Below, piece after piece: positions 1 through 18,100 of a stretch of DNA of 27,664 bases. Each line of letters opens with the position of its first letter. Positions within the stretch are counted from its first letter, which is position 1. The position numbers and the translations under genes were made by a program. The notes under the pieces are model-generated. The model was not told the origin of the DNA and searched no databases. It saw nothing but the letters and a program-made list of their open reading frames with translations. The stretch is from a virus: the IMG/VR virus record IMGVR_UViG_3300048839_001887, positions 1 through 27,664 of that record; one strand, 5' to 3'.

Positions 1-264
1 TTCACCGGCTGGGTGACGTGGGCGCAGACGACGCTGCCCACTGCCTTGGCAACCCTCAGCGCCAAAGCATCGACCATTTGGGGCGCCATCTCCAGCGCCG
101 TCACGCAGGCATGGGCCACCATCCAACCAACCTTCACCGGCTGGGTGACGTGGGCGCAGACGACGCTGCCCACTGCCTTGGCAACCCTCAGCGCCAAAGC
201 ATCGACCATTTGGGGCGCCATCTCCAGCGCCGTCACGCAGGCATGGGCCACGGCCAGCCCCGCC
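1..264 (+). repeat. Tandem 132-bp duplication inside the tape-measure gene
   Basis: Bases 1-132 are repeated at 133-264. The first 119 bases of each unit are identical, and only the last codons differ. The unit encodes 44 residues (FTGWVTWAQTTLPTALATLS and onward), a multiple of three, so the frame is kept. Further copies may lie upstream of the window. Nucleotide identity points to a recent duplication. Confidence 0.95.
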
Positions 265-1275
265 TTCACCTCACTGACGACAGCAACCGGCAGCTTGACC
301 ACGGCCTGGACTTCATTGCAGCCCGTGCTGGCTGTGGTAGGAGCAGTGATGGCCCCGGCCTTCGAGCGGCTCGGCGCTGCGCTCGGCGGCCTGCCCGGCA
401 AATTGGGCGAACTGGCCCCCAGCTTCGCCGGCCTGGGCGAAGCCTTCGGCAACCTCCTCACCGCCATCCAGCCGCTGGTGGCGGTCATGGGCGGCGCCCT
501 GGTGTTGGCCGCCAACCTGGGCGTCAATCTGGTGGCTTCGGCCTTCGAGCGGCTGCCGGCAATCCTGGGCCCCATCATCAACCAGGTCACCGCGGTCATC
601 AACCTGATTGCCACCACAGTAAGCGGGGTGTCTGCCGCAATTCTGGCGCTATCGACAGGAGATTGGACCGCCGCCTGGGAAGCCATGAAGCGCGTGGTCA
701 CGGCGGCAATCGAATTCGTGCAGACAACGTGGGAAAACTTCACCGGGTTGCTGGGCGGCGTAGGCGACGTGTTTGCCAATGTTGTGCCCCCCGACTGGAT
801 CGCCGGGCTCACCAACTGGACATGGCCGGCCTTCCCAACCCTGCCCGCCACCTTGGCATCGCTGCTCACCTGGTCCTGGCCAACTTTCCCCAACCTGCCG
901 GCGCTCCTGAGCAGCCTGATGGCATGGCGGTGGCCCACTTTCCCAGACACGCCCGGCTGGCTGGACGACCTGTTAGATTGGAAATGGCCGAGCCTACCGG
1001 CGCTGCCTTCATGGTTGGGCGGCGCTCCTGGTAACGCCGCCGGCACATCCTTCTGGCGCGGCGGGGCGACCTGGGTCGGCGAAGCAGGGCCGGAACTGAT
1101 CAACCTGCCGCGTGGGACGCGCATCTACCCGACTGACTTATCGACGCAGATGGCCGCTGAAGCGGGCGCCGGCAACGGCGTCCACATCACCGTCAATGCA
1201 ACAGTGGCCAATGAATTAGATCTACATCAACTAGCCTATCGGCTGGCGACGGAATTTGAGCGATGGCGGCGATGA
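1..1275 (+). CDS. Phage tail tape-measure protein, 3' part
   Basis: The reading frame is open from the first base, so the N-terminus lies outside the window. At least 424 residues are visible. The protein is low in charge and rich in Ala, Leu, Thr and Trp, with long hydrophobic helices, as is typical of tape-measure proteins that set tail length and line the tail lumen. Two identical 44-residue units open the window. Four tryptophan/proline repeats (pattern WxWPxFPxLP) follow at 817-1023. The C-terminus (GAGNGVHITVNATVANELD onwards) resembles the end of many siphophage tape measures. The tail genes that follow in the same orientation support the call. Identification rests on composition, repeats and position, because tape measures have few conserved residues. 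Confidence 0.8.
   Translation, partial: FTGWVTWAQTTLPTALATLSAKASTIWGAISSAVTQAWATIQPTFTGWVTWAQTTLPTALATLSAKASTIWGAISSAVTQAWATASPAFTSLTTATGSLTTAWTSLQPVLAVVGAVMAPAFERLGAALGGLPGKLGELAPSFAGLGEAFGNLLTAIQPLVAVMGGALVLAANLGVNLVASAFERLPAILGPIINQVTAVINLIATTVSGVSAAILALSTGDWTAAWEAMKRVVTAAIEFVQTTWENFTGLLGGVGDVFANVVPPDWIAGLTNWTWPAFPTLPATLASLLTWSWPTFPNLPALLSSLMAWRWPTFPDTPGWLDDLLDWKWPSLPALPSWLGGAPGNAAGTSFWRGGATWVGEAGPELINLPRGTRIYPTDLSTQMAAEAGAGNGVHITVNATVANELDLHQLAYRLATEFERWRR
817..1023 (+). repeat. Degenerate Trp/Pro protein repeats in the tape measure
   Basis: Four successive peptide repeats of about 19-20 residues carry the pattern WxWPxFPxLPxxLxxL: WTWPAFPTLP, WSWPTFPNLP, WRWPTFPDTP and WKWPSLPALP. They are diverged at DNA level, so they are older than the 132-bp duplication at the window start. 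Confidence 0.85.
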
Positions 1276-1309
1276 CGCGTCATGCGCCACGTCCCAGGCG
1301 CTGATCGAC

Positions 1310-1337
1310 CGACAAGAAAGCCTTGTAAGACGGTGAG
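1310..1337 (-). repeat. Dispersed hairpin element, copy R1
   Basis: One of five related short elements in the window. Read on the minus strand it contains CCGTCTTACAA, a 7-base loop ending in CTTTC, then TTGTCGG. It lies 35 bases after the tape-measure stop and about 115 bases before the CHAT gene. The other copies are at 4338, 11630, 18551 and 22975, all in short spacers in front of a start codon. Confidence 0.7.
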
Positions 1338-1341
1338 AGAC

Positions 1342-1367
1342 GCTGGCGCCGAGCCACCGGCGCCAGC
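1342..1367 (+). terminator. Stem-loop between tape measure and CHAT gene
   Basis: GCTGGCGCC and GGCGCCAGC form a perfect 9-bp stem around an 8-base loop. No T-tract follows, so it is a weak or partial terminator at best, or an RNA processing or stability element. The rest of spacer 1276-1451 holds the R1 repeat and an AT-richer stretch (about 1391-1410) that could include a promoter, but no convincing -35/-10 pair is visible. Confidence 0.4.
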
Positions 1368-1451
1368 AAGGGTGGCAGGGGCGCACCCTGCTAGTGTAAT
1401 CGTGTAAAAGCAGCCTGGTCATGCACGATTGTAAAGTGGCGGTGCAAATGC

Positions 1452-2201
1452 ATGGTCGATGTTCGGATTCTATTGGTAGCGCCACATATGAGCGAACTAG
1501 CAGGGGTTGCAGACGAAGTCTACGCCATCGAACGCACGCCAGGGCTGGCTGTGAACCGGCTGCCGCCCACCCTGCACCGGCGAGAGATATTGCAGGCGTT
1601 GTGCGAGCGGGTGTTTGATGTGCTCTGGTTCGCCACGCATGGCGCCAGTGACGGCGTGTGGTTGGGAGAAAGCGACGTGTTGGGCAGTGGCGATTTGGTG
1701 GGCATGGTGCGCAGCGCCGGACTCTTTGGCGTGTTCATCAACACCTGCGACAGCGTCCACCTGGCAGAAGTGCTGCACGATGAAACAGGCGTCGATGTAG
1801 TGTGCACGCTTCAGGCGGCGCCAGACCTCTCTGCGTTTCAGATGGGGGTGTTGTTCGCCCGGCATCTGGGCAAGACAGGCGACTTTCGGGCGGCATTCAA
1901 TCTGTCCAGACCGGGCGACGAGCTACTCTTCCGTTATATTCCTGAGTATAGGGAGGCTTTGGTCGTGGCGCCAGAGCGATACACATTCTCAACCGATGAA
2001 TTGCGCACCATCTATGAAGCAATCAACGAGGTCCGGCAACGATTGTCTGTCGTCGAGGTGGAGTTGCGCTACGTGCGGCAAGACCTGGACGGGCGGCGCG
2101 GCGAGCTGCGCGCACCCGCACAGTGGGTCATTGTGCTCGTCGGATTATTGATGAGCCTGGGATTGTTCATGTTGCTCTATTTGGTGGTCGGGCGGCTATG
2201 A
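1452..2201 (+). CDS. CHAT-domain (caspase-like) protease with C-terminal membrane anchor
   Basis: A 249-residue protein. Residues 1-160 match the CHAT fold (caspase HetF-associated with TPRs): the catalytic His is in FATHG (His63), followed by DGVWLGESDVLGSGDL, and the catalytic Cys is in INTCDS (Cys99). A V-x-x-L region and an AF near 148 complete the usual pattern. Residues 181-215 are heptad-like and probably coiled coil. Residues 222-246 (APAQWVIVLVGLLMSLGLFM onward) form one transmembrane helix, so the protease would sit tethered to the membrane. CHAT proteins usually act as proteases in bacterial signalling, cell death and anti-phage defence, so a single-domain anchored form in a phage tail operon is odd. 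Its stop overlaps the next start (ATGA), so it is translationally coupled to a three-helix membrane protein. No clear SD precedes the ATG. Fold and catalytic dyad are fairly sure; the role is unknown. Confidence 0.75.
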   Translation: MVDVRILLVAPHMSELAGVADEVYAIERTPGLAVNRLPPTLHRREILQALCERVFDVLWFATHGASDGVWLGESDVLGSGDLVGMVRSAGLFGVFINTCDSVHLAEVLHDETGVDVVCTLQAAPDLSAFQMGVLFARHLGKTGDFRAAFNLSRPGDELLFRYIPEYREALVVAPERYTFSTDELRTIYEAINEVRQRLSVVEVELRYVRQDLDGRRGELRAPAQWVIVLVGLLMSLGLFMLLYLVVGRL

Positions 2202-2524
2202 ATCAAGTAGATCTGCTGCCGGAGGCATTGGCGACGATTGTGTATCCAGGGCTGGCCGCCATCGGCCTGCTGTGGGTGCATGTCGGGGTGGCGCGGTGGT
2301 GGCGCTCACGGCGCATGAGCGATCTGCTGTGGGTAGTGACGGCCACATTTGCGACGGCGACGTTTGTGCTGTTGTCGCTTTCAACAGGATTATTCATTCT
2401 GTTCGACTTTCTGCAGCTCCGGCTGGCAATTCGCTTTGGATGGCTGGCGACGCTACTTTCTTCTATTTGGCTGACGGTGGAATACCTGAGACGACAACAT
2501 GCGAACTACCAACAGCGAAAGTGA
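2198..2524 (+). CDS. Small integral membrane protein, three predicted helices
   Basis: A 108-residue protein starting at the ATG that overlaps the CHAT stop by four bases (ATGA). This start is preferred to the upstream in-frame GTG inside the CHAT gene. Hydrophobic segments lie at about residues 10-32, 43-69 and 77-97, separated by basic loops (RWWRSRRM, LRLAIRF) and ending in a basic tail (EYLRRQHANYQQRK). No enzymatic motif is seen. Position suggests a partner of the anchored CHAT protein, or a holin/antiholin-like lysis component. The family is not recognised. Confidence 0.75.
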   Translation: MNQVDLLPEALATIVYPGLAAIGLLWVHVGVARWWRSRRMSDLLWVVTATFATATFVLLSLSTGLFILFDFLQLRLAIRFGWLATLLSSIWLTVEYLRRQHANYQQRK

Positions 2525-2702
2525 GCAGATCGACTGGCGCAATATGGAGAATCGGCTGCGCAAAGTGGAGGATGCACTGATCTCTGTGCAGACCATTGTC
2601 AACTTGTTAATGGATCTGCTGGAGCGGGCCATCCCGCAGCGGGATGTGGACGGTGATGCAGGCGATGATGAAGAAATTCCAGGAGGAAATGATGAAATTT
2701 GA
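2499..2702 (+). CDS. Short coiled-coil protein (XhlA-like pattern, no membrane helix)
   Basis: 67 residues, overlapping the end of the preceding membrane-protein gene by 26 bases in another frame. The core (residues 12-44, MENRLRKVEDALISVQTIVN onward) is a strongly amphipathic heptad helix, and the C-terminus is very acidic. Phage XhlA-type hemolysin proteins have a similar N-terminal coil followed by a membrane helix, but that helix is missing here. The next gene supplies membrane helices, so the two may act as a split pair. The call rests on coding pattern and tight packing. Confidence 0.6.
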   Translation: MRTTNSESEQIDWRNMENRLRKVEDALISVQTIVNLLMDLLERAIPQRDVDGDAGDDEEIPGGNDEI

Positions 2703-2985
2703 GATGGGGCTGCCGAGTGTATTCTGGTTGGTGCTGATCCTCGCACTCATTCCAGCCGTGCAGGGAATTCTAGAACAGTTTTTCCCAGCGACCGAGTACT
2801 GGTATTCGGCGCTGATCGTAGCCATCCTCGGCGCCGTGGCCAAGGCAATCCAGGTGACATATGGCGCTGCTGGGAACGGCGCCGCCGGGAACGGCGCCGC
2901 CGGGGATGGGGCGCCGCCGGGCGCCGCGGGAGACGTGCGCCCGGCGGCGCGGGCGGACAACAAACTGCGGCGCTGGCTGCTATAG
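2692..2985 (+). CDS. Holin-like small membrane protein with Gly/Ala/Asn tail
   Basis: 97 residues. I chose the ATG at 2692 because a perfect AGGAGG (2681-2686) sits five bases upstream; the earlier in-frame ATGs lack a ribosome site. Two hydrophobic segments (residues 9-27 and 36-56) are joined by a short turn, then comes a low-complexity tail of repeated GAAGNG units and a basic end (KLRRWLL). Size, two helices and charged C-terminus suit a class II holin. It is the last gene of the CHAT cassette. The GC-rich repeats at about 2867-2920 could slip during replication. No endolysin is recognisable next to it, so the holin role is an inference. Confidence 0.65.
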   Translation: MKFEMGLPSVFWLVLILALIPAVQGILEQFFPATEYWYSALIVAILGAVAKAIQVTYGAAGNGAAGNGAAGDGAPPGAAGDVRPAARADNKLRRWLL

Positions 2986-3002: not shown

Positions 3003-4328
3003 ATGTATCTGGCAATCGGGGATTCACAGGGGTCGATTGTGCTATCGGGCGGGGGCGCCCTCATCGGCTGCACCTATTTCCCAGCCACGCCCACACGCAA
3101 TGGCACGTCTTTCGAGGATGTGACGGAGAGCGGCGAATTGGTGCTGCGCGGCAGCGCCACCGCCATTCGCACCGCCGCTAATACCATCGAGCGTTACTTT
3201 GAGCAGGCGCACGAACTTCAAACGGGCGGGCGCGGCACGCGCGTCTATGCGTCATATACGCCCGTTAGCGGCGTCGACGCAACCTATCGATCGGAGATCC
3301 TGGAGGCGCGACTGACCTGGTCGGAGGATCCGGCGCTGCGCAGGCTCAAGGATGCCAATCCTACGGTCACAGTCGGCTTCACGTGGCGCCGGCGTCCCTA
3401 CTGGGAAGGCCCAGAAACGGAGGTGCAGCTGATGAATTCCAATCAGAGCTACGCCACCGGCGGGCGCACCATCTACAATCATGACGATAGCAACACCGGG
3501 CATGATAACTGGGTGCAGATGAACCCGCTGCAGGTAACGGGAATACTGCCGGCGGGCGCACGCATTCACCTGATCAATAATAACGGCGCGGCGCGCACGT
3601 GGCGGCGGCTGTGGGTGGCGCTCAATGCGATGTACGTATACACGCATGTGCTCGAGGCTGAGAGCCGGCTGGCTGGCGGAACCACCACCAACAGCGGCAG
3701 CGCCAGCAACGGGCAATACCTCCAAATGGCACTGAATAATTCATCCAGCTCATTTGACTGGTATTTAGACCAGGTGTTGCTCAGCGCCGGGAAAGGCCGC
3801 CTTCTGCGGCTGCTGGCGGTTGTCAACTATGTTGGCGGCGGCGCGGTGGGCGTGGTGCGCGCTTCGATCCGTGACGCCAGCAACAGCAGTGTACTGTGGC
3901 AGGGCGATGCCGTGGCCGCGCCCACCGCCCCCAGCGTGCTCGATCTGGGCGCCATCCCCATTCCGCCTGGCGGCCGGACGACCGCGACGCCTGGCGCGCT
4001 GACACTACGGCTGACATTCGAGGGGACAGGTGCGTGGGGAGTGGATTTTTTACAGATTACGCCCACGAACGGGCTGGCGGTTGTCGATGGCCTGGCAGCG
4101 GTGGCCACCAATGGCGCCGTGGTGCTGGACAGCATCGAGCGACAGAATTACGTGCTCGACGCCAGCAATTATCAGTACCCCACTGTTGCGGTGAGCGGCC
4201 AGCCGATCGAGCTGACGCCGAACATCGAGCAACGGCTGATTGTGCTGGCAGAGACGGCCAGCGGAGTTGCGATTGCGGATACGCTGTCGGTGCGGGTGTG
4301 GGTTAGCCCGCGGCGGCTGGTTGTGTAG
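3003..4328 (+). CDS. Phage tail structural protein (distal-tail/baseplate position)
   Basis: 441 residues. The start has a GAGG-type ribosome site about 10 bases upstream. The protein is beta-rich, with many Gly, Ser, Thr and Asn, and no signal peptide or membrane helix. The N-terminal 130 residues contain short beta strands and a conserved-looking segment around TVGFTWRRRPYWEGP. The middle (about residues 130-340) resembles a jelly-roll carbohydrate-binding module (NSGSASNGQYLQMALNNSSS and following). The C-terminus (SVRVWVSPRRLVV) ends on a strand. It lies two units after the tape measure, where siphophages encode the distal tail protein, but I cannot name the family. Confidence 0.65.
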   Translation: MYLAIGDSQGSIVLSGGGALIGCTYFPATPTRNGTSFEDVTESGELVLRGSATAIRTAANTIERYFEQAHELQTGGRGTRVYASYTPVSGVDATYRSEILEARLTWSEDPALRRLKDANPTVTVGFTWRRRPYWEGPETEVQLMNSNQSYATGGRTIYNHDDSNTGHDNWVQMNPLQVTGILPAGARIHLINNNGAARTWRRLWVALNAMYVYTHVLEAESRLAGGTTTNSGSASNGQYLQMALNNSSSSFDWYLDQVLLSAGKGRLLRLLAVVNYVGGGAVGVVRASIRDASNSSVLWQGDAVAAPTAPSVLDLGAIPIPPGGRTTATPGALTLRLTFEGTGAWGVDFLQITPTNGLAVVDGLAAVATNGAVVLDSIERQNYVLDASNYQYPTVAVSGQPIELTPNIEQRLIVLAETASGVAIADTLSVRVWVSPRRLVV

Positions 4329-10306: not shown

Positions 10307-10537
10307 ATGTCGGAAAGCAAGACAAACCTTGATCCTATCCGGCCGCCGCAGGTGATTGTCGAGCAGGTGCGAGAGTTGTACCGCGAGCAGATCATGCTCC
10401 AGCAGCGGCTGCGTGATGTTGTTGGCACGGCGGGGGTGATTCTGCAAGTGCCAGAGAACTGGCAGTATAATATGCAGAGCGAGGCGTTTATGCCGCCGGA
10501 GGGCGCGGGCGGGCAGCAGACCCTGCCAGAGGGTTAG
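10307..10537 (+). CDS. Hypothetical small protein, last gene of the tail module
   Basis: 76 residues from the ATG at 10307 (GGGAG ribosome site seven bases upstream), starting one base after the preceding stop. The N-terminal half (IVEQVRELYREQIMLQQRLR) is a likely coiled coil; the C-terminal half is Gly/Pro-rich. A longer in-frame extension to 10205 lies inside the preceding gene and is disfavoured. The gene is followed directly by the bidirectional terminator. Confidence 0.6.
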   Translation: MSESKTNLDPIRPPQVIVEQVRELYREQIMLQQRLRDVVGTAGVILQVPENWQYNMQSEAFMPPEGAGGQQTLPEG

Positions 10538-10568
10538 CCGGGTGTGCTGAATAGGCGGGAATAAAAAG

Positions 10569-10604
10569 GCGCCCGATCCACTGCCGGATCGGGCGCTTGT
10601 GTTT
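10569..10604. terminator. Bidirectional intrinsic terminator between the two gene blocks
   Basis: GCGCCCGATCC (10569-10579) and GGATCGGGCGC (10586-10596) form a perfect 11-bp stem with loop ACTGCC. T-rich bases (TTGTGTTTT) follow on the plus strand. The A-run at 10563-10567 gives a TTTTT on the minus strand. It therefore can end both the rightward tail operon and the leftward packaging operon. Confidence 0.9.
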
Positions 10605-10611
10605 TGGCGTT

Positions 10612-11613
10612 TCATGGCCGCCGCCCCAGCGCCGCCAGCCGCCCCACACTCGTTGGAACCAGCGCCCCACCCCAGGTGTCATCCCGCCGCCGCGTCACCA
10701 GGTCGCCCAGCGATAGATCACCACGCTGGAATAACTCCCACCGCCCCGTCCCCAACATCCGCCGTTGCACGCTCTCCGGCTGACGCACAAACCACTCTGG
10801 CCCCGTCTCATAATCAACCGGCGCCCCCCGGTTCAACACAGGCACAAGCGTGCAACGATCATTGGGGTGAGCATCGAACGGCTCATCCAGTGTATGAAAC
10901 TGCCCGTCCGCCATCAGACAACCCAGACAGGTGCGCTCATCCTTCGCCGCCAGCCGGCGATACCCAGCCACCACATGGCTGCGCCGATAACTCTCCTGCG
11001 TTGTCTCTCGGTACACCCGTAGCGTCTCCGTGCGCGCAATCGTCGCCATGCGCGTAAACGAACGCGCCAGCCCCTCTCGCAACGCACGCCGCGCCGTCTC
11101 CAACGGATTCCGGCCCAGCGCAATCCCATCGACCAGAACCTGGCGCAGGGCTTCCGGCCCTACCTGGCTCGCATCGGCGAGGATGTCACCCACCGGCGTG
11201 CCCGCGCCAGTCAGCCCAATCATATTTTCCACCGCCGCCACCGGCAGCCGGTTAAATTGAAGAAGGATCTCGGCATCCGTGGCCACGGCGGCGACGGCGG
11301 CCTGGCTGTGGGTGATGGCGGCAGAGAGCAGCGCCCGCTGCCGTGCGGCGATGCGATCTTCGGCAAAACGTCCGTAGCGCGCCAATTCATCATCGACCTG
11401 GCGCATGAGTTGTTGATAGCGCCGGCTGCGCCCCAACTGCCCCAGCGTCACCCGGCCGCCGCCTTGCAACTCCAGCGCCAGCGCATCCACCTGCGCCTGC
11501 AGCGCCTGCTCCAACCCCAGCCAGCGCCGCGCCATCTCCTGTTGCATAGCTTCGTCGCCGCGCAACAAATCCGCCCGCCAATTCTGCATCAGGTCGATTA
11601 CCAACGGCGGCAT
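10612..11613 (-). CDS. Mu-F/SPP1 gp7-like minor head protein
   Basis: 333 residues. The C-terminal half carries the Mu-F-like signature: an RTET-x-R motif (residues 194-199, IARTETLRVYRETTQESYR) then CLGC (229-232) and HPNDRC (249-254), with spacing that fits a metal-binding head morphogenesis domain. The N-terminus is long and helical. The start has GAGGG four bases before the ATG. In phages of this kind it sits next to the portal gene, as here, and helps build the procapsid or delivers proteins with the DNA. It is the last gene of the leftward series, just before the terminator. Confidence 0.88.
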   Translation of the reverse strand: MPPLVIDLMQNWRADLLRGDEAMQQEMARRWLGLEQALQAQVDALALELQGGGRVTLGQLGRSRRYQQLMRQVDDELARYGRFAEDRIAARQRALLSAAITHSQAAVAAVATDAEILLQFNRLPVAAVENMIGLTGAGTPVGDILADASQVGPEALRQVLVDGIALGRNPLETARRALREGLARSFTRMATIARTETLRVYRETTQESYRRSHVVAGYRRLAAKDERTCLGCLMADGQFHTLDEPFDAHPNDRCTLVPVLNRGAPVDYETGPEWFVRQPESVQRRMLGTGRWELFQRGDLSLGDLVTRRRDDTWGGALVPTSVGRLAALGRRP

Positions 11614-11629
11614 AGTTCCCTCACAGTCA

Positions 11630-11658
11630 TCGTCTTACAAGAAAGGGTTGTAGGACGG
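11630..11658 (-). repeat. Dispersed hairpin element, copy R3
   Basis: Read on the minus strand: CGTCCTACAA, loop CCCTTTC, TTGTAAGACG. The arms pair over ten positions with one G-T pair. It lies in the 69-bp spacer between the portal stop and the Mu-F-like start. Confidence 0.75.
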
Positions 11659-11682
11659 AGATTGGGAAATTGGTCCCCAATC

Positions 11683-13032
11683 TCAAACATCACCCCGATC
11701 AAAATCCCGCTGCGCGACAGTCAGCATGGCGTCGGCGTAAGTGCGCTCGGCCAGCCGCTCGCTGGCCCGATCTCTTTCCATTTGCGCCACATCCCCCTCT
11801 GACCAACCCTCCGACCGTCGCAAATGCGTGCGCAACGGCACCCCGGCCTCCACCGCCAGTTTGCGCACCTCAGCCGCCGAGCGCGGCTGCACCGTCTCCA
11901 CCGGAGCATACGCAATCCGAATCTGCCGTGTGGCTGCCTCATGACCCTGTAGCCGCAGCAGAAACGCCGCCAGGTCGCGCCACGTCGGCGCCAGCGTAGC
12001 TTGAACCCGAACCGTCTTCTTATTCAGCGGCGCCTCCATCGCAATCAACGCCTCGCCCGAAGGGTCGCCGCCCTGTTGATAGAAATAGTGTCGCGGCGTG
12101 CGCGTGATAATCCCAATATCAGCAGAGAGTTTATTGATAGCATTCAGATAATTCTGCAGGTCCGTGGCGACGAACTGGCCGGCCTGCGTCGCCTGCACAC
12201 CCTGGTCCGAAGCAACCAAATCCCAGATAGCGTTGGGATTGTTCTTGAGGTTGGCAATGCCAGCGCTGCTGATAACATAGCGTTGGGGGAACGCGCCAAA
12301 CTCCGCCGCGACCATCATATCCGCAAGCAGCTTGTTGACAGCGTCCTGCACCTCGATAACGTTGGCCAACTGCGACTTCGCCCGCCGCCGGTTAGATCGG
12401 AAGTGAAAGACCGGAATCACCCCATACGGGTTTTCCGCTATCGCCTCCCCGCCGGCCAGCCCTGCCACCGGCTCGAACGCCTTCGCCGTCGGTGTTTCGC
12501 CTCCCTTGAACGCGTGCCTGGTGGCGTAATACTCCAGCCGATCCGGATAGTACAACGTCAGCCGGATGCTCCCCTCCTCCGCCCACCACTTCGCCGCAAA
12601 GCGCACCTGCCGCGGATTCTCGGCTGCATACTCCGCATGGCACAACCGCGCGTCGTTTTGGAACGCGGCGACCGCGCCGCCTGCCTCCGGCCACGCCAGC
12701 ACAAAAGCCTCCCCCGTAACCGCCACATCTTCATGGATGCCATATTCTTCATCGACGAGTCCCGTCTCTTCCCACAGCCCGTAAAGCGCCTGGGTCGCCT
12801 CCTCGTCATCGACGACAGTCGGAGTATAGAGTTCCATCCGATCCAGAACACTATCGATGACAACCGCACACCAGTTCTCGGTAAAGCGCGCTTCGAGGCC
12901 GCTGAAAATTTCCCGCAGCTTCTCGCTGGAGTAGACCAACGGCTGTTCGCCGTCGTAGTACCGCCAAAGAGCGTCGTAGTCGCGCTTTTTGGCGGTCAGG
13001 GCTGCCAGGGCAATGCCAAGATCGCTTGTCAT
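11683..13032 (-). CDS. Phage portal protein (SPP1 gp6-like)
   Basis: 449 residues, a usual length for this family. The start is the ATG after an AAGGA ribosome site, five bases downstream of the large terminase stop. The N-terminus (LWRYYDGEQPLVYSSEKLRE, FTENWCAVVIDSVLDRMELY) and the middle (NPYGVIPVFHFRSN, VIEVQDAVNKLLADMMVAAE) follow the portal pattern, in which twelve copies form the DNA gate of the capsid. Position between large terminase and Mu-F-like gene is the standard packaging order. The C-terminal part is helical, charged and rather variable. Confidence 0.88.
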   Translation of the reverse strand: MTSDLGIALAALTAKKRDYDALWRYYDGEQPLVYSSEKLREIFSGLEARFTENWCAVVIDSVLDRMELYTPTVVDDEEATQALYGLWEETGLVDEEYGIHEDVAVTGEAFVLAWPEAGGAVAAFQNDARLCHAEYAAENPRQVRFAAKWWAEEGSIRLTLYYPDRLEYYATRHAFKGGETPTAKAFEPVAGLAGGEAIAENPYGVIPVFHFRSNRRRAKSQLANVIEVQDAVNKLLADMMVAAEFGAFPQRYVISSAGIANLKNNPNAIWDLVASDQGVQATQAGQFVATDLQNYLNAINKLSADIGIITRTPRHYFYQQGGDPSGEALIAMEAPLNKKTVRVQATLAPTWRDLAAFLLRLQGHEAATRQIRIAYAPVETVQPRSAAEVRKLAVEAGVPLRTHLRRSEGWSEGDVAQMERDRASERLAERTYADAMLTVAQRDFDRGDV

Positions 13033-13037
13033 AGTTC

Positions 13038-14393
13038 TTATCCTTGTTGGGTTCCCTGCTCACGAACAACTCTAGCCAATTCGTTAAACGCGCCGCTGGC
13101 CGCGTCCACCTCATCGTCGTGCGCCCCACCTGGGAACGCGTGCAGCGTACTCAAAAATCGGCCATTCCACGCCCCGCGCACAACCTTCACATTGCCCGCC
13201 TCTGCCTGGGCGGCCAGCGGCTTGGCGCGCGAAACTTTGTCGCCCTGGGGAATCACCGCCCGCACATCAAACCCGGCCAGCAGCGCCACCGTATTGCGCG
13301 CGTCGCGCACCCCGCTCGCCCCACCCTCCCGTTCAAAACGCACCGCCACCAGCACGCCATCCTGCGTCGCCGTGTTATGCATCAGCGCATCAACCCGGCC
13401 AGGCGCCGCCTGCTCCGCAATCGCATCGAGCACGTAGTAAACATCACCGACCCGCCGCATCAACACACCCGCCGTATAATCCGGGTCTCGCTTCGCAATC
13501 GCCTTCTCCGTCGCCGCCAGATCCCAGAAGCGCACCGTCCGCCCGCCCGCCGGCGCCGCCTCCACAATCTCGAACCAGCCCCGATTGAACACCTTGCCCG
13601 CCGCCGGCTTGATCTTCCAATTCCCGCCGAGTAGCCGTTCACGATCCACCAGCGACAGCGCCATCAAATTCGCCAGATAACCCGGATCCGCCTCCAACAA
13701 AATCTTATTGTCAAAGACGCTCGACAAAATAAACGTGAACGACTTTGGCTTGCTCCCCGGATACTGCGCCCGCAGCGTGGCCGGATCATCGGTCCAGCGC
13801 AACACATCGTTCACCACTACGAACCAGCGCACCACCCCAGAGCGCTCCGGCAGCGCATAGCCGTCCTCGCCAATGTACCAGCCCACAAACTCTTGCACCC
13901 ACCCGCCGATTTCGTCGTCGTCGGGCACAGGGTTACAGGTTGCCCGGATGTAGGGGCGCACGCCACACAGCGACCGGTTGCGGCTCAACATGTAGAAGAA
14001 CTGCTCGCGGGTAAAGTGGGTCAGCTCGTCGAAGCACAGCAGCGGGATCTGTGCGCCTTGCCAGTCGAACCGGTTCTTTTCGTGCTCCATATGCGCAAAT
14101 CTGACGCTGGCGCCGCTAGAAAACTTCCAGTCGAGCAGATACTCCCGCGGCGCCGCGCCGATAAGCGGATAGAGTTTCATTGACTCGTCCCAAAGACCGC
14201 CGGGGTTGCGCACCTGGACAGACGTGCGCCGGAAGATGACGGCGTTGAAACCAGGGTTACGCACATGCCGCAGCGGCTCAAGCAGGAGGGCAAAGCTTTT
14301 GCCGCCGCCGGCCGCACCGCCGTAGATGACCAGGTCCGCGGCGCTGGACAGAAAGAGTGATTGGGGTCCGGGTTGCGGGCCAAACTCAGCCAT
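13038..14393 (-). CDS. terL: Terminase large subunit
   Basis: 451 residues from the ATG at 14393, which overlaps the preceding gene by eight bases; the longer open frame upstream is Arg/Trp-rich and looks non-coding. The ATPase domain has Walker A GGAAGGGKS (residues 25-33) and Walker B LLCFDE (118-123). A following ATCNP motif fits the coupling region. The nuclease domain has the acidic residues of FWDLAATEK (Asp291) and HDDEVDA (425-431). It cuts and pumps phage DNA through the portal encoded next to it. Confidence 0.93.
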   Translation of the reverse strand: MAEFGPQPGPQSLFLSSAADLVIYGGAAGGGKSFALLLEPLRHVRNPGFNAVIFRRTSVQVRNPGGLWDESMKLYPLIGAAPREYLLDWKFSSGASVRFAHMEHEKNRFDWQGAQIPLLCFDELTHFTREQFFYMLSRNRSLCGVRPYIRATCNPVPDDDEIGGWVQEFVGWYIGEDGYALPERSGVVRWFVVVNDVLRWTDDPATLRAQYPGSKPKSFTFILSSVFDNKILLEADPGYLANLMALSLVDRERLLGGNWKIKPAAGKVFNRGWFEIVEAAPAGGRTVRFWDLAATEKAIAKRDPDYTAGVLMRRVGDVYYVLDAIAEQAAPGRVDALMHNTATQDGVLVAVRFEREGGASGVRDARNTVALLAGFDVRAVIPQGDKVSRAKPLAAQAEAGNVKVVRGAWNGRFLSTLHAFPGGAHDDEVDAASGAFNELARVVREQGTQQG

Positions 14394-14856
14394 CGGCAGC
14401 GTCCGTGGCTGTGGGCGCGTCGCGTCCATTGTCGGGCAAATAAATGTGCACGCCGGCGTCGGGCGTGGTGAGGGCGACGTCAGTCTGGGCGCGCGGCCGG
14501 TAATCTCCCAGCATCTCCAACGCCAATTTTCGATCCTGGTGCGCCTTCGGGTCCGGGTCGCTCGCCACCGTCGCCAGCGCCTTGAAAATATCACGCCGAT
14601 GCTTCAGCAGCGGCGCCGCCTGCATCCGCACAATCTCCTCCGCCATCTCCGGGTTCTTCTCCAACCACTGGCGAATCACCCGATCGCTGGCCAGCCCCAA
14701 CACCGCCGTCGCCAATTCTCCTTGCAACTCCGGCCGCCGATCCTTCACCGGCGACGCCCGCCACGCAATATAGACCGCCTTGCGCCAGTCCCAGCCGCGT
14801 TCGACCAGATCCCGGTAATCCTCCCACCAGGCAAAGTCACGCAGCGCCGCCAACAA
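14386..14856 (-). CDS. Probable terminase small subunit; start codon uncertain
   Basis: At least 156 residues from a TTG at 14856. The frame stays open upstream to a stop at about 14982, but no ATG or GTG occurs there. An ATT at 14937 has a good AGGGGA ribosome site six bases upstream, and the peptide before the TTG (SRKAYHGLL) reads like part of the protein, so the true start may be non-standard. The product is helical with HTH-like stretches (DLVERGWDWRKAVYIAWRAS), and sits directly before the large terminase, where the small subunit recognises the packaging site. The call rests mainly on position. Confidence 0.6.
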   Translation of the reverse strand: MLAALRDFAWWEDYRDLVERGWDWRKAVYIAWRASPVKDRRPELQGELATAVLGLASDRVIRQWLEKNPEMAEEIVRMQAAPLLKHRRDIFKALATVASDPDPKAHQDRKLALEMLGDYRPRAQTDVALTTPDAGVHIYLPDNGRDAPTATDAADG

Positions 14857-14951
14857 TCCATGATAGGCTTTGCGGCTTTGCGCTTGCCCCGGAACGTCCG
14901 GGGATGCCGGAAATACTGTGTTCTCCTCGCTTGAAATACTCGATCCCCTCG

Positions 14952-15022
14952 CAAACCGGTAATTTCGGAACCAAACCTTTTACTTATACCTGCGCGCACC
15001 CTGCCCAAACCGGTAATTTCGG
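14952..15022. repeat. Two 17-bp direct repeats upstream of the terminase genes
   Basis: CAAACCGGTAATTTCGG occurs exactly at 14952-14968 and 15006-15022, 54 bases apart. The first copy overlaps the likely 5' end of the small terminase and the second is in the spacer. The core ACCGGT is self-complementary. On the minus strand a TATAAG lies between the copies at a position suitable for a -10 element. Candidates are an operator or a terminase recognition site. The rest of the 14857-15166 spacer holds a GCGGGC/GCCCGC stem-loop (15045-15060) and the hairpin at 15094; no gene is seen. Confidence 0.6.
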
Positions 15023-15093
15023 TATTTTTTTCGTTCTGGGAATTGCGGGCGACAGCCCGCCCTCGATTTTGCCTTCTCTAATCTCTACACGAA

Positions 15094-15133
15094 GCAACCG
15101 GGCGCATTCTCGTGGGAGAGTGCGCCCGGTTGC
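15094..15133. terminator. Strong 18-bp stem-loop between small ORF and terminase genes
   Basis: GCAACCGGGCGCA (15094-15106) pairs with TGCGCCCGGTTGC (15121-15133), extended by five more pairs around a four-base loop. No T-tract follows on either strand, so a Rho-independent terminator is not certain; it may be an attenuator or processing site controlling the packaging genes. Confidence 0.6.
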
Positions 15134-15166
15134 CGGATACGCTATGTGATTGTCGCCTCGAACGCC

Positions 15167-15385
15167 TCAGCGTTCCTCCTGCCCGATCCGAATGTGCACC
15201 ATCTCCGCCGGCTTCTCAATCCACACCTCACGGCGATCCCGTGAAATGTGGATGATCACCTGCTGACCCTTGACGGCGGGCGTTTGCAACAGCCCGGCCA
15301 GCACCTTGCCCACCTCCGCACACACGAATTCGATCTGTCTCGCCTGGTTCGGTGTCAACTTACATCTTCCTTGCTCCGCTCCCAC
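15167..15385 (-). CDS. Hypothetical small protein
   Basis: 72 residues, MGAEQGRCKLTPNQARQIEF onward. Residues 12-35 form a helix and the second half (GQQVIIHISRDRREVWIEK) a beta hairpin, so a small DNA- or protein-binding fold is possible. It lies between the small-membrane-protein genes and the terminase block. No family is recognised. Confidence 0.5.
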   Translation of the reverse strand: MGAEQGRCKLTPNQARQIEFVCAEVGKVLAGLLQTPAVKGQQVIIHISRDRREVWIEKPAEMVHIRIGQEER

Positions 15386-15432
15386 TCGATTCTACCATAA
15401 CTTTAGCATGAGAATCCAGTGTTGTCGGGAAA

Positions 15433-15460
15433 GTAGAGACGCAAGATCTTGCGTCTCTAC
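15433..15460. repeat. 28-bp perfect palindrome (genomic repeat), copy 1
   Basis: GTAGAGACGCAAGA followed immediately by its exact reverse complement. A second copy, differing at one base of 28, is inside the ParB-like gene at 19371-19404. Short palindromes of this type are dispersed genomic repeats in several bacterial groups (from memory, cyanobacteria and Chloroflexota). Here it supplies the TAG that ends a decayed regulator fragment. Confidence 0.9.
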
Positions 15461-15600
15461 GGTTGGTCAACGGGCACGAAGGTGATCTCGAGCCGCCGGC
15501 CCAGCGCGGCGGCCAGGCGGCGTACCTACGCAGGTAGCCATCCACGGTGCGGTCGCTGCGGCCGTCGGCGATGGTGGCTTGCCTGACTCAGGAGCATGGT
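15457..15600 (-). pseudogene. Remnant of an XRE-family regulator with frameshift
   Basis: Two minus-strand frames together read like the C-terminal part of a HigA/XRE antitoxin-type protein: first QATIADGRSDRTVDGYLRR, then, in another frame after about 15525, RRLAAALGRRLEITFVPVDQ. The switch of frame breaks the protein, and the helix-turn-helix half upstream is not recognisable. The stop TAG is provided by the adjacent palindrome. Either a frameshift or a sequencing error could explain it. Confidence 0.55.
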
Positions 15601-15619
15601 GTCTATCCTCAATTGGTCG

Positions 15620-15766
15620 TCATACCGGATTCAGGATGACGATGATGATCAGTAGGATCCAGCCTACCACGGCGATGAGGGTCAGCCAGAACTCGGCGCC
15701 GTCGCCGTCGGCGAGCCAGTCGCTGATGATCCAGCGGTGGCGGCCGGGCTTGCCGCGCTTGCTCAT
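15620..15766 (-). CDS. 48-residue membrane protein
   Basis: A short gene coupled to the one before it by an ATGA overlap. The N-terminus is basic (MSKRGKPGRHRWIISDWLAD), followed by a single hydrophobic helix at residues 27-45 (WLTLIAVVGWILLIIIVIL). It likely sits in the inner membrane with its N-terminus inside. Function unknown. Confidence 0.6.
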   Translation of the reverse strand: MSKRGKPGRHRWIISDWLADGDGAEFWLTLIAVVGWILLIIIVILNPV

Positions 15767-16287
15767 TGGATCCAACGGAATTGCGTGTCGGCGTCTGGCT
15801 CACCCGGCGCGTCGGTCATGGCCCAGCTTTGCGGAAGCGGCGCCGGCTGCTGGCGCTGGCTGTCGGCGAGCTGCTGCCGCGCGATCTGGTTGGCGATTTG
15901 GAGCACCCGCGCATCGATTTGGTTGCCGGATCGGATGGCGCCGGACATGCCGGTGGCGACGCTGCGTGCAACCTCGCCATAGTCGTCAGCTCGCTGAAAC
16001 TGGATCAGGCCATTCAGCACGTTATCGTGATGCTGCATGGCCTGGCGCCCAAACACGGCCGACACGCCGATGCTCATCAGGTAGATAATCGCTAGCAGCG
16101 TCAACAGACCCGCGCCGACGAGCAACACGCGCACGCCAGACGGACCGAAGTAATGGTCGGTGGCCCAGCCCAATCCAGCCAGCGCCAGCAGGATGACGAC
16201 CACGATCCCCAGCGTCGCCCAGCGATGCGAGGTGCGCAGTGCATTGATCTCATGCTGCATATAAACGTCGTTTTTGTTATCGTCCAT
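15763..16287 (-). CDS. Hypothetical membrane protein, two helices
   Basis: 174 residues. Two hydrophobic segments at about residues 24-43 and 52-77 (ATLGIVVVILLALAGLGWAT; VRVLLVGAGLLTLLAIIYLM) are followed by a ~95-residue soluble helical tail. The start overlaps the preceding stop by one base (TAATG), with GGGGGA upstream. It belongs to a run of coupled small genes downstream of the FtsK-like gene and may help place that translocase at the membrane, though this is only inferred from neighbours. Confidence 0.65.
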   Translation of the reverse strand: MDDNKNDVYMQHEINALRTSHRWATLGIVVVILLALAGLGWATDHYFGPSGVRVLLVGAGLLTLLAIIYLMSIGVSAVFGRQAMQHHDNVLNGLIQFQRADDYGEVARSVATGMSGAIRSGNQIDARVLQIANQIARQQLADSQRQQPAPLPQSWAMTDAPGEPDADTQFRWIQ

Positions 16288-16778
16288 TATTTCCCCCTGA
16301 ACAGTGATTTAATCCAATTGAAAACGTCTGTGTGCGCGGGGGCTGGCGCGGGCGGCAGTCGTTGTTTGGACCAGCGCTGTGGCGGCGGCGCCCTGCGTTC
16401 GCGGTACGCCTCATTTGTGCCGAGCATCTCATCCGCCGCGCCGTAGAGTTTTGCCATAAATCCCTGGCGCTTGATGCGGCCGCCACCGGCCGGCCGGCTG
16501 GCGCCTTCCGTCCACGACCGCTCCAGCAGAGCGCGGTGCTTCTCGTCTAGCAGCGGCGTGGTCAGAATCCAACCTGCGCGGCAAAGGAGGTATTCGGCCC
16601 ACACGGCCTGACGGCGAGGAACATCAAACCCCACCTCCGCCACCGGGCCAAAGAGCGGCACATATCGGCTGGCGACGGGGATACCGTAGCGCCGCATCAG
16701 GTGTTCAGCATCCATGCCGACGCGCGTCGTCTGCATCCAGCGGAAGCGGTGCCAGCCGGTTTGCTGGCGTGGCTTCAT
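16287..16778 (-). CDS. Hypothetical protein coupled to the FtsK-like gene
   Basis: 163 residues starting at an ATG that overlaps the FtsK-like stop by four bases (ATGA). The middle (YLLCRAGWILTTPLLDEKHR) is helical and the C-terminus is basic and Pro/Ala-rich before a final FNWIKSLFRG. No recognised motif. Coupling suggests that it works with the FtsK-like ATPase, but nothing in the sequence proves it. Confidence 0.6.
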   Translation of the reverse strand: MKPRQQTGWHRFRWMQTTRVGMDAEHLMRRYGIPVASRYVPLFGPVAEVGFDVPRRQAVWAEYLLCRAGWILTTPLLDEKHRALLERSWTEGASRPAGGGRIKRQGFMAKLYGAADEMLGTNEAYRERRAPPPQRWSKQRLPPAPAPAHTDVFNWIKSLFRGK

Positions 16779-18100
16779 CGCGCACCGCCCATGCGAATGA
16801 TTTTGGTCGCTTCCCCATGCGCCGGCGTCTCCGTGGCGCCCAACGCCTCTGACACCCAGCGATGTGTGTCGGAGGATTTGGCGCCATACACGGCCACGAT
16901 GGTGGCGTTAAGCGACGGCAATTTCGCACGCAGCGACCGGATGGCGGCAGCCTCAATTGCGGTCGGTGCGCGCCGCGGCAGCGGAAATGCGACTGGTGCG
17001 TCCGCACCGGTGCGCACCGGTGCGGACGCTCTGTTTTCTGGCTGCACCGGTCGAGAAATGGTCTCTGCACCGGTGCGCACCGGTGCAGGCCATGTGCGGC
17101 GGGTGAGATCGACCAGGCTTTGCGTACCGGCGTCATCGAGCCAGTAGGCCTGCAGGCGGGTGATATTGGGGCCGTCGATGCGCAGGAAGGCGCCGTTGCC
17201 GGGGAGGAGTTCGGCGCCGGTTGCGGGGCGGTCGGCGGCGGCCTCGGCGTGGCGGGCGCCAACGACCTGGCCGACGATGCGCACGGGGAAATTGGCCTTG
17301 ACGACGCTGCCGATCTCGCCGGCCTTGGGATGCTGGGTGGCGGCGACGACGTGGATGCCGAGCGAGCGGCCGAGGCTGACGATGCTGCCGAGGCGGGCGA
17401 CGATGCCAGGCAGCCGCGCCAGCTCGCGCAGTTCGTCAATGGCAAGCAGGAGTTTCGGCTCAGTGATCTGGCGCTCGATGCGCTGGCGAAGGACGCTCTC
17501 GACGTGACGGATGGCGGCGGCGGCAGCGGCATCCACGACGGCGAAGCGCGCTACGTGCGGCAGCGCGGCCAGTGCGGCCAAATCGCTGTTTTTCATGTCG
17601 ATGAGCACCATTTGCAGATCGGCCGGCGCGGTGTTGATCGCCAGCGATAGCAGCAACATGCGCATCAGGGTCGATTTGCCGCTGCCGGTGGTGCCGGCCA
17701 CCAGGATATGTGGATAGTCGGCCAGGCGAATGGTGTCGTCGGTCGCGCCGTCGGCGCTGTAGATGCGTCCGGTGAGCATGGTGAGGCTGCGCAGCTTCAA
17801 ATGCGCTCGAATCCACGGCAGTGGCTGCGGCGCCGGGTGTGGCGCTTCCAATGCCAGCGGCAGGCGGCGCAGGCGGAGCGGGGTGGCGGTGTGGCGGCTG
17901 GCGGAGATGCGTTCGGATAGTTCCGCCAGGCGCTTTTCGATGGCGTCGATGCTCTGCGCGGGGCCGGTGCGCAGGCCATACAGAATGTAGCTGGTTCCGG
18001 CGACGGTGGTCCAGGCCGAGCGTGTGCCGGCGTCGATGTTGAAGGCGGCCAGCGTCTGATTGATGATTTTGATCTCTCCATGCAGTTGTTTTTCTAGCAT
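16775..18100 (-). CDS. FtsK/SpoIIIE-like DNA translocase ATPase
   Basis: 441 residues from the ATG at 18100, chosen because GGAGG lies seven bases upstream; the longer open frame to 18205 starts inside a structured leader. Walker A is GTTGSGKST (residues 136-144), preceded by PHILVA; a LIDMK motif follows; Walker B is LLLAIDE (217-223); then VAATQHP and ANFPVRIVGQV give the FtsK family pattern. The N-terminal ~130 residues replace the usual membrane domain and no transmembrane helix is visible, so it is a soluble form of the kind found in mobile elements. It is likely to move or segregate circular DNA. The Pro-rich linker near residues 320-360 is encoded by tandem palindromes. A transfer ATPase role is an alternative. 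Confidence 0.85.
   Translation of the reverse strand: MLEKQLHGEIKIINQTLAAFNIDAGTRSAWTTVAGTSYILYGLRTGPAQSIDAIEKRLAELSERISASRHTATPLRLRRLPLALEAPHPAPQPLPWIRAHLKLRSLTMLTGRIYSADGATDDTIRLADYPHILVAGTTGSGKSTLMRMLLLSLAINTAPADLQMVLIDMKNSDLAALAALPHVARFAVVDAAAAAAIRHVESVLRQRIERQITEPKLLLAIDELRELARLPGIVARLGSIVSLGRSLGIHVVAATQHPKAGEIGSVVKANFPVRIVGQVVGARHAEAAADRPATGAELLPGNGAFLRIDGPNITRLQAYWLDDAGTQSLVDLTRRTWPAPVRTGAETISRPVQPENRASAPVRTGADAPVAFPLPRRAPTAIEAAAIRSLRAKLPSLNATIVAVYGAKSSDTHRWVSEALGATETPAHGEATKIIRMGGAR
16998..17088. repeat. Tandem palindromes GCACCGGTGC inside the FtsK-like gene
   Basis: Two perfect palindromic blocks (16998-17029, 32 bp; 17065-17088, 24 bp) each contain two adjacent GCACCGGTGC units, with a shorter GCACCGGTC between them at 17044. 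They encode two APVRTGA repeats of the protein linker. The design could reflect selection on DNA (a protein-binding or nicking site) rather than on protein. Confidence 0.9.

Follow-up and report, generated by a model that had tools for sequence, protein, structure and literature searches.

The insert and its borders

The window analysed here, the whole virus record of 27,664 bases, carries genes of a temperate tailed phage as judged by Pfam (portal, terminase, Mu-F-like, AAA, FtsK-like, and integrase). Four open reading frames (ORF1–ORF4) share one strand in the interval from 1275, where the tape-measure gene ends, to 3003, where a distal-tail-like gene starts; the features are as follows.

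13..1275, + strand: tail tape-measure protein, C-terminal part; the gene starts before the contig and matches PHROG tape-measure families (E 6e-13 and 1e-12)
1276..1451, no strand: intergenic gap of 176 nt with a strong predicted fold
1452..2201, + strand: ORF1, predicted CHAT-fold (caspase-like) protein, 249 aa; based on Pfam, a predicted model, a transmembrane (TM) segment, and a homologue
1452..1946, + strand: CHAT core, ORF1 residues 1-165, the part of the model that best matches SAVED-CHAT
1992..2195, + strand: long helix, ORF1 residues 181-248, a coil-like part followed by the TM segment 226-244 (2127-2183)
2198..2524, + strand: ORF2, membrane protein, 108 aa, with 2-3 hydrophobic segments; ATGA overlap with ORF1
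2499..2702, + strand: ORF3, soluble coil-like protein, 67 aa, no TM
2644..2985, + strand: ORF4, two-TM protein with a Gly/Ala-rich tail, 113 aa; holin-like by shape and position
3003..4328, + strand: distal-tail-like protein, 441 aa, named by position; right border of the insert

The initial annotation described four overlapping genes packed into a tail operon, and this arrangement is present on a single strand, with overlaps of 4 nt (ORF1/ORF2), 26 nt (ORF2/ORF3), and 11-59 nt (ORF3/ORF4), the last depending on the ORF4 start. The better-placed start of ORF4 is probably the ATG at 2692, 5 nt behind an AGGAGG at 2681-2686, which gives a protein of 97 aa. When codon usage is scored against that of the tail genes, each of the four ORFs is favoured in its annotated frame. 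ORF1 is the most atypical, at 0.125 bit per codon; the other seven genes, which include the four reference genes themselves and ORF4 scored from 2695, range from 0.29 to 0.43. The insert has a GC content of 59%, compared with 66% for the tape-measure part and 62.5% for the two genes downstream. Misassembly of the CHAT region was considered and dropped, because a single phage, G014, has matches to the flanking genes on either side, with their order unchanged.

The gap upstream of ORF1 has a fold stability z of -3.0 (1 of 200 shuffles equally stable) and contains a perfect 10-bp inverted repeat (1342-1351/1358-1367). A scan with the sigma-70 consensus, the one promoter type covered, gave no promoter, and no T-run terminator was found, the strong hairpin having no T-run. 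At the right border, the 441-aa distal-tail-like protein has no useful family match in Pfam or PHROGs, and 17 other records hold relatives of it that are 25-57% identical. Within the tape-measure gene, positions 1-264 of the window hold two 132-nt copies in tandem (94% identical).

Behind ORF1, the annotated three-helix membrane protein stands as a membrane protein, but its helix number is 2-3, since two of the flagged hydrophobic segments of ORF2 (11-29, 43-61, and 54-72) overlap. ORF3 agrees with its earlier description as a soluble coil. The holin-like label of ORF4 fits its two TM segments and its position, but ORF4 matches no holin in Pfam, PHROGs, or NCBIfam; with topology and position only, we dropped the stronger claim of a proven holin. 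Neither ORF2 nor ORF3 has a convincing family in the same three collections, and neither has a match by tblastn over 105 fetched loci. ORF4 residues 63-110 have a weak match in that search (L067 3168-3311; 37.5% over 48 aa, E 0.013). None of the four proteins matches PADLOC-DB 2.0.0 at E up to 1.

Predicted CHAT fold of ORF1 and its phage homologue

ORF1 had been annotated as a free-standing, membrane-anchored CHAT protein with a His63/Cys99 dyad, a coiled coil, and one C-terminal TM helix, and our results agree with this layout. Residues 180-214 form a coil-like helix (an equally strong heptad moment in 0.45% of shuffles), the single TM segment lies at the C-terminus (226-244) with three Arg and three acidic residues just before it and one Arg after, no other domain is fused, and tail genes surround the gene. 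His63 (codon 1638-1640) and Cys99 (codon 1746-1748) stand at dyad positions and align with the His and Cys of the Nostoc, SAVED-CHAT, and G061 proteins described below.

A search of ORF1 against Pfam returned the CHAT match expected from the annotation, just below the curated cut-off: CHAT (PF12770) was the sole match at E up to 1, with a whole-library E of 1.5e-4 and a score of 21.8 bits, 2 bits below the cut-off of 24. Among 72,556 plasmid records, tblastn of ORF1 gave two matches only, both in Nostoc (E 0.2 and 0.6). Pfam assigns one of these proteins to CHAT (E 1.6e-11). The best 25 of 62 Pfam rows of the second do not include CHAT, and it is called CHAT-like from its alignment to the first. 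ORF1 residues 1-170 score ∼12.8 SD above shuffles against each Nostoc protein, with none of 500 shuffles reaching the score, a figure flattered by the choice of these pairs as best matches from a large collection. A profile of ORF1 and its phage homologue (A10) has SAVED-CHAT 8tl0 as its best PDB match (E 0.056, among 177,635 sequences), followed by a DNA helicase (E 0.12), and scores 94.7% by hhalign against one Nostoc CHAT protein. The residue after the dyad His is Gly in ORF1 and 8tl0, Ser in both Nostoc proteins, and Met in the phage homologue. In the Nostoc plasmid proteins (L004 4380-8975 and L005 4350-6557) the CHAT-like region is joined to nSTAND1/WD40 and pentapeptide repeats; their match to the phage family PHROG 923 covers the NTPase and pentapeptide parts and leaves out the CHAT-like part.

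The AlphaFold model of ORF1 from a two-row alignment reached a pLDDT of 71.4 (core ∼80); a single-sequence model was poor (pLDDT 49.5) and was not used. The model has the strand-helix order of caspases; His63 lies within strand 57-65, and Cys99 is the last residue of strand 93-99. Eight Foldseek rows had an E of 0.001 or better: the first four were 8tl0 chains (E 2e-7 to 9e-7), and the other four were D-lactate dehydrogenases. In the Foldseek ranking, SAVED-CHAT is trailed by D-lactate dehydrogenases and flavodoxins, mostly at large rmsd or low TM-score, and we take these as a common Rossmann-like arrangement. In the VIA ranking (best 50 of 1000 chains), 8tl0 came first (Z 15.6 over 161 residues, rmsd 2.7, 21% identity), followed by DdvA (12.4), caspase-6 (11.8), separase (10.6), and Csx29 (10.4). 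Unrelated oxidoreductases reach Z 11.1, mixed among the caspases, separase, and Csx29 (10.4-11.8), and the only entries clear of them are 8tl0 and, by a smaller margin, DdvA. Because the caspase-like matches below DdvA intermingle with oxidoreductases, ORF1 can be assigned as CHAT but not as a particular caspase. As modelled, ORF1 has a CHAT fold.

The best match among predicted viral structures was A0A1P8DJ94, a viral protein close to ORF1 in length (264 aa), with an E of 3e-13, TM-scores of 0.55/0.52, and 22% identity; the alignment runs over 267 columns with gaps at an rmsd of 21, its parts being differently placed. A Megaviridae caspase domain protein also matches, weakly (E 4e-3). An uncharacterised 320-aa phage protein (A0A8S5MXG5 in BFVD, from Myoviridae sp. 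ctWaE18) matches at E 3e-6 and 11% identity, and may represent a second phage lineage with a caspase-like predicted fold.

A homologue of ORF1 in another phage (G061, locus L100) was found by tblastn over the 105 fetched loci, several of which derive from one record (31.9% over 163 residues, E 4e-17). This protein of 257 aa has CHAT as its sole Pfam row (E 0.055, 13.3 bits). It shares 65 of 227 aligned residues with ORF1 (29%), including 50 of 156 in the core, and identity is raised around His63 and Cys99 (12/21 vs 38/135 elsewhere in the core; Fisher p 0.012, with windows picked after the alignment was seen). Both dyad residues are kept in the two proteins, so the loss of His or Cys that was sought in homologues is absent from the one homologue read. 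Like ORF1, the G061 protein has a C-terminal helical stretch followed by one TM segment, its coil being less clear (7.9% of shuffles with a heptad moment as strong). Conservation of ORF1 is carried by two sequences.

The two phages are divergent: mean GC is 44% in the G061 stretches read vs 62% in the window, and their distal-tail proteins are only ∼27% identical. In both, the CHAT gene lies directly behind the tape-measure gene, with a gap of 3 nt in G061 (tape-measure stop ending at 1188, CHAT start at 1192) and 176 nt in the window. The C-terminal part of the G061 tape-measure protein matches 158 phage records, and 11 of the 15 matches listed are annotated as tape-measure protein.

Searches for further relatives of ORF1 gave none by tblastn in 50 of the 80 records of the terminase scan (G061 lying outside the 50), and none among INPHARED phages for ORF1 (E up to 1) or for the G061 homologue; when only the cores were searched (E up to 10), the ORF1 core had a single INPHARED row, at E 9, and the homologue core had none. 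The homologue had no match in plasmid records. As to the captured defence gene that the initial annotation put forward as one possibility, one exact-pattern genome scan together with the plasmids gave no close cellular relative of ORF1. Pattern-based scans of viral contigs and cellular genome contigs with ORF1, and of viral contigs with a three-row CHAT alignment, returned no relatives, which means little because such scans need near-exact peptide stretches and missed the G061 homologue in viral contigs. A pattern scan of cellular genomes with the distal-tail alignment also gave no match.

Slot content across related phages

We read 18 tape-measure/distal-tail junctions, namely those of the window, G014, and two sets of eight records; in three of the second set (L098, L099, and L104) the tape-measure protein ends do not differ, and a single phage may be behind all three. 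An upstream ORF was called tape-measure from its location and its length (719-1787 aa for complete ORFs), with similarity support for the window, G014, G001, and G061, and weakly for G008. Fourteen of the 18 junctions have no insert, L008 has one 100-aa ORF, and larger inserts occur in the window, G014, and G061. One mark of a phage accessory gene (moron) is that related phages lack it at a junction which is otherwise conserved, and near relatives have no CHAT gene at this junction: ORF1 is an accessory gene, dispensable at the junction.

Pfam CHAT was absent in all eight records searched besides the window and in 50 of 50 in a further search, but G061 was among those 50, so this search misses proteins of the ORF1 type. 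The two-row profile, run over 59 records (many of them fragments), found only the window and G061, and nothing in G014 or in the 13.8-kb fragment G001, where no gene lies between the tape-measure and distal-tail genes. Over their last 171 aa, the window's tape-measure protein is 66% identical to that of G014, 46% to that of G001, and 40% to that of G061.

The nearest relative, G014 (57% in the distal-tail protein, 66% at the tape-measure C-terminus, and 76-83% in the terminase), fills the slot with a different three-gene cassette. The product of its first gene (L094 1425-1796) has 123 aa, starts with a Gly/Asn-rich region, continues in a coil-like stretch, and has its TM segment at the C-terminus; the second gene, joined by an ATGA overlap, encodes a 113-aa multi-TM protein (Pfam Phage_holin_2, E 0.003, below its cut-off); and the last is a holin gene (PHROG E 2e-5; Pfam Holin_LLH E 0.005, below its cut-off). 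These cassette proteins have no BLASTP similarity to ORF1, ORF2, or ORF4, and tblastn of ORF1–ORF4 in the G014 record gave no match at E up to 0.1. The coil-TM protein that takes the CHAT position in G014 carries N-terminal GNVVVGKGN and VNVGSDG stretches, whose look may recall signalling motifs of the amyloid or RHIM type. Behind the G061 CHAT gene lie an 802-aa ORF that has no family, a fibre gene of gp80 type (E 2e-65), and a 107-aa gene; the distal-tail relative also lies downstream.

The proposal that the four genes form one conserved membrane complex is not supported, the G061 CHAT gene being without ORF2–ORF4 and the G014 cassette having a similar topology but unrelated proteins. The four-gene unit is therefore only partly supported: the tape-measure/CHAT order recurs in G061, but the three following genes are not there. 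Because CHAT recurs without ORF2–ORF4, and the membrane layout recurs without CHAT, the locus is better described as a variable accessory slot than as a fixed four-gene machine. No endolysin was recognised among the window and G014 proteins scanned, the last third of the G014 fibre protein and many small ORFs lying outside the scan; the only PHROG row named endolysin was weak (E 6e-4) and fell within the tape-measure protein.

Related systems and possible roles

Phage lysis cassettes such as PBSX XhlA/XhlB place a coil-TM protein beside a holin. The window likewise has consecutive genes for small coil-TM and multi-TM proteins, but ORF1–ORF4 have no XhlA or holin family match and no endolysin gene was recognised. 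The closest solved fold is the SAVED-CHAT protease of type III CRISPR (8tl0; PMC11417357), whose His and Cys regions align with those of ORF1; ORF1 differs in having no SAVED sensor and no CRISPR context seen, and in its long helix, TM segment, and surrounding phage tail genes. Among described arrangements, the EACC1-caspase membrane system comes closest: in this two-gene system, too, a peptidase of the caspase superfamily is placed at the membrane, with a small membrane-protein gene adjoining, and at least 33% of the caspase proteins have TM helices (PMC7159879). Its gene order and domain layout are unlike those seen here: in that system a single-TM EACC1 gene lies 5' and the caspase part precedes a variable effector, whereas here the CHAT gene comes first, behind the tape-measure gene and the gap, has no C-terminal effector, and is followed by a gene with 2-3 TM segments. 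The system is described from multicellular bacteria, not phages.

More distant likenesses include HetF, which has a CHAT domain and one predicted TM segment as in ORF1 but is described (PMC8406250) as a TPR-bearing cyanobacterial protein with a cell-division function. TPR-CHAT/Csx29 (8eex) shares the CHAT fold, and Borvo places CHAT in defence (PMC10952713), but the partners and cellular context of both differ from those of ORF1. A report of a phage-encoded CHAT protein was not recognised in the literature searched, which leaves aside subscription papers and preprints.

The reading we tentatively prefer is that ORF1 is a tail-anchored minimal CHAT accessory protein of the phage, probably an active cysteine protease, whose late proteolysis at the membrane may help to kill or lyse the host. 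From its position, ORF1 would be made late, together with the tail genes, and the charged residues flanking its TM segment suggest that it would sit on the cytoplasmic face of the inner membrane. It might then assemble through its helix and so become activated, after which it would cleave a membrane or host protein and the cell would be killed or opened. Activation by assembly or binding is plausible for this fold because 8tl0 is, by its title, an activated SAVED-CHAT filament and Craspase is described as an RNA-activated protease in the title of PMC9729208. In the window phage, ORF2–ORF4 (two membrane proteins and a coil) would be the likeliest partners or targets, and the flexible Gly/Ala-rich tail of ORF4 could be a cleavage site. 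A membrane setting is seen in the TM segments of ORF1 and the G061 protein and in the PHROG holin of the G014 slot; lysis is not a context common to both CHAT genes, because that of G061 is not beside holin-like genes.

Somewhat doubtful in our view is a role in anti-defence or superinfection exclusion, in which the anchored CHAT protein would cleave or block membrane components of the host or of rival phages during lysogeny or infection. The phage is temperate, with an integrase, CHAT proteases are part of host defence (Borvo and type III-E; PMC10952713), the slot content is variable, as is usual for such genes, and the structured gap could hold signals of its own. The gap has no sigma-70 consensus promoter, however, the four proteins have no PADLOC match, and no partner sensor was recognised within the cassette. 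The position behind the tape-measure gene in both phages, and the 802-aa ORF, fibre gene, and distal-tail relative that follow in G061, would also suit a tail-linked payload, made with the tape-measure protein, carried in or at the tail, and inserted into the membrane of a new host to cleave early. We regard this as unlikely: the tape-measure relatives G014 and G001 have neither a CHAT gene at the junction nor a profile match, and CHAT is therefore not needed for the tail.

The same absence weighs on a protease that trims the tape-measure protein during assembly, which adjacency and possible translational coupling in G061 would favour; it was dropped as a main role, the closest tape-measure relatives read having no CHAT gene there, and we hold it to be very unlikely. 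An inactive CHAT domain serving as a scaffold, or as a decoy for host CHAT pathways, is very unlikely as well. Of the caspase domains that occupy one effector position in known conflict systems, ∼70% are reported to be inactive (PMC7159879), and the residue after the His varies, but the His and Cys are kept in both proteins at 29% overall identity, and identity is raised around them.

CHAT and caspase-like proteases are known mainly as host weapons, in defence, as CRISPR effectors, and in programmed death. A minimal anchored CHAT protein in one tail-gene slot of two divergent phages suggests that phages use a death-associated enzyme for their own ends, and if ORF1 does open or kill the cell, it would represent a principle of lysis or exclusion without a report in the literature searched. 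It is conceivable, although we would not expect it, that tailed phages own a tape-measure-linked, membrane-anchored caspase family as a counterpart of caspase-driven death, with a modular slot in which a helix-TM layout bears a CHAT head in two phages and a Gly-Asn-rich repeat head in a third. For amyloid and RHIM-like signalling motifs, the paper for comparison is that on BASS (PMC8086366).

Elsewhere in the record, the best plasmid match of the integrase is to Candidatus Chlorohelix, which we take to belong to Chloroflexota; at 30%, the similarity is too low to name a host, and that assignment was dropped. Between positions 10537 and 10618 the window switches from tail genes on the + strand to head genes on the - strand, while G014 has both modules on one strand. 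Similarity to the G014 Mu-F-like protein ends at 10618 (333 aa in the window; a 519-aa ORF in G014). The switch may be an inversion or an assembly join; record L013 is 100% identical to window positions 10555-17045 and confirms only 63 bases past the break.
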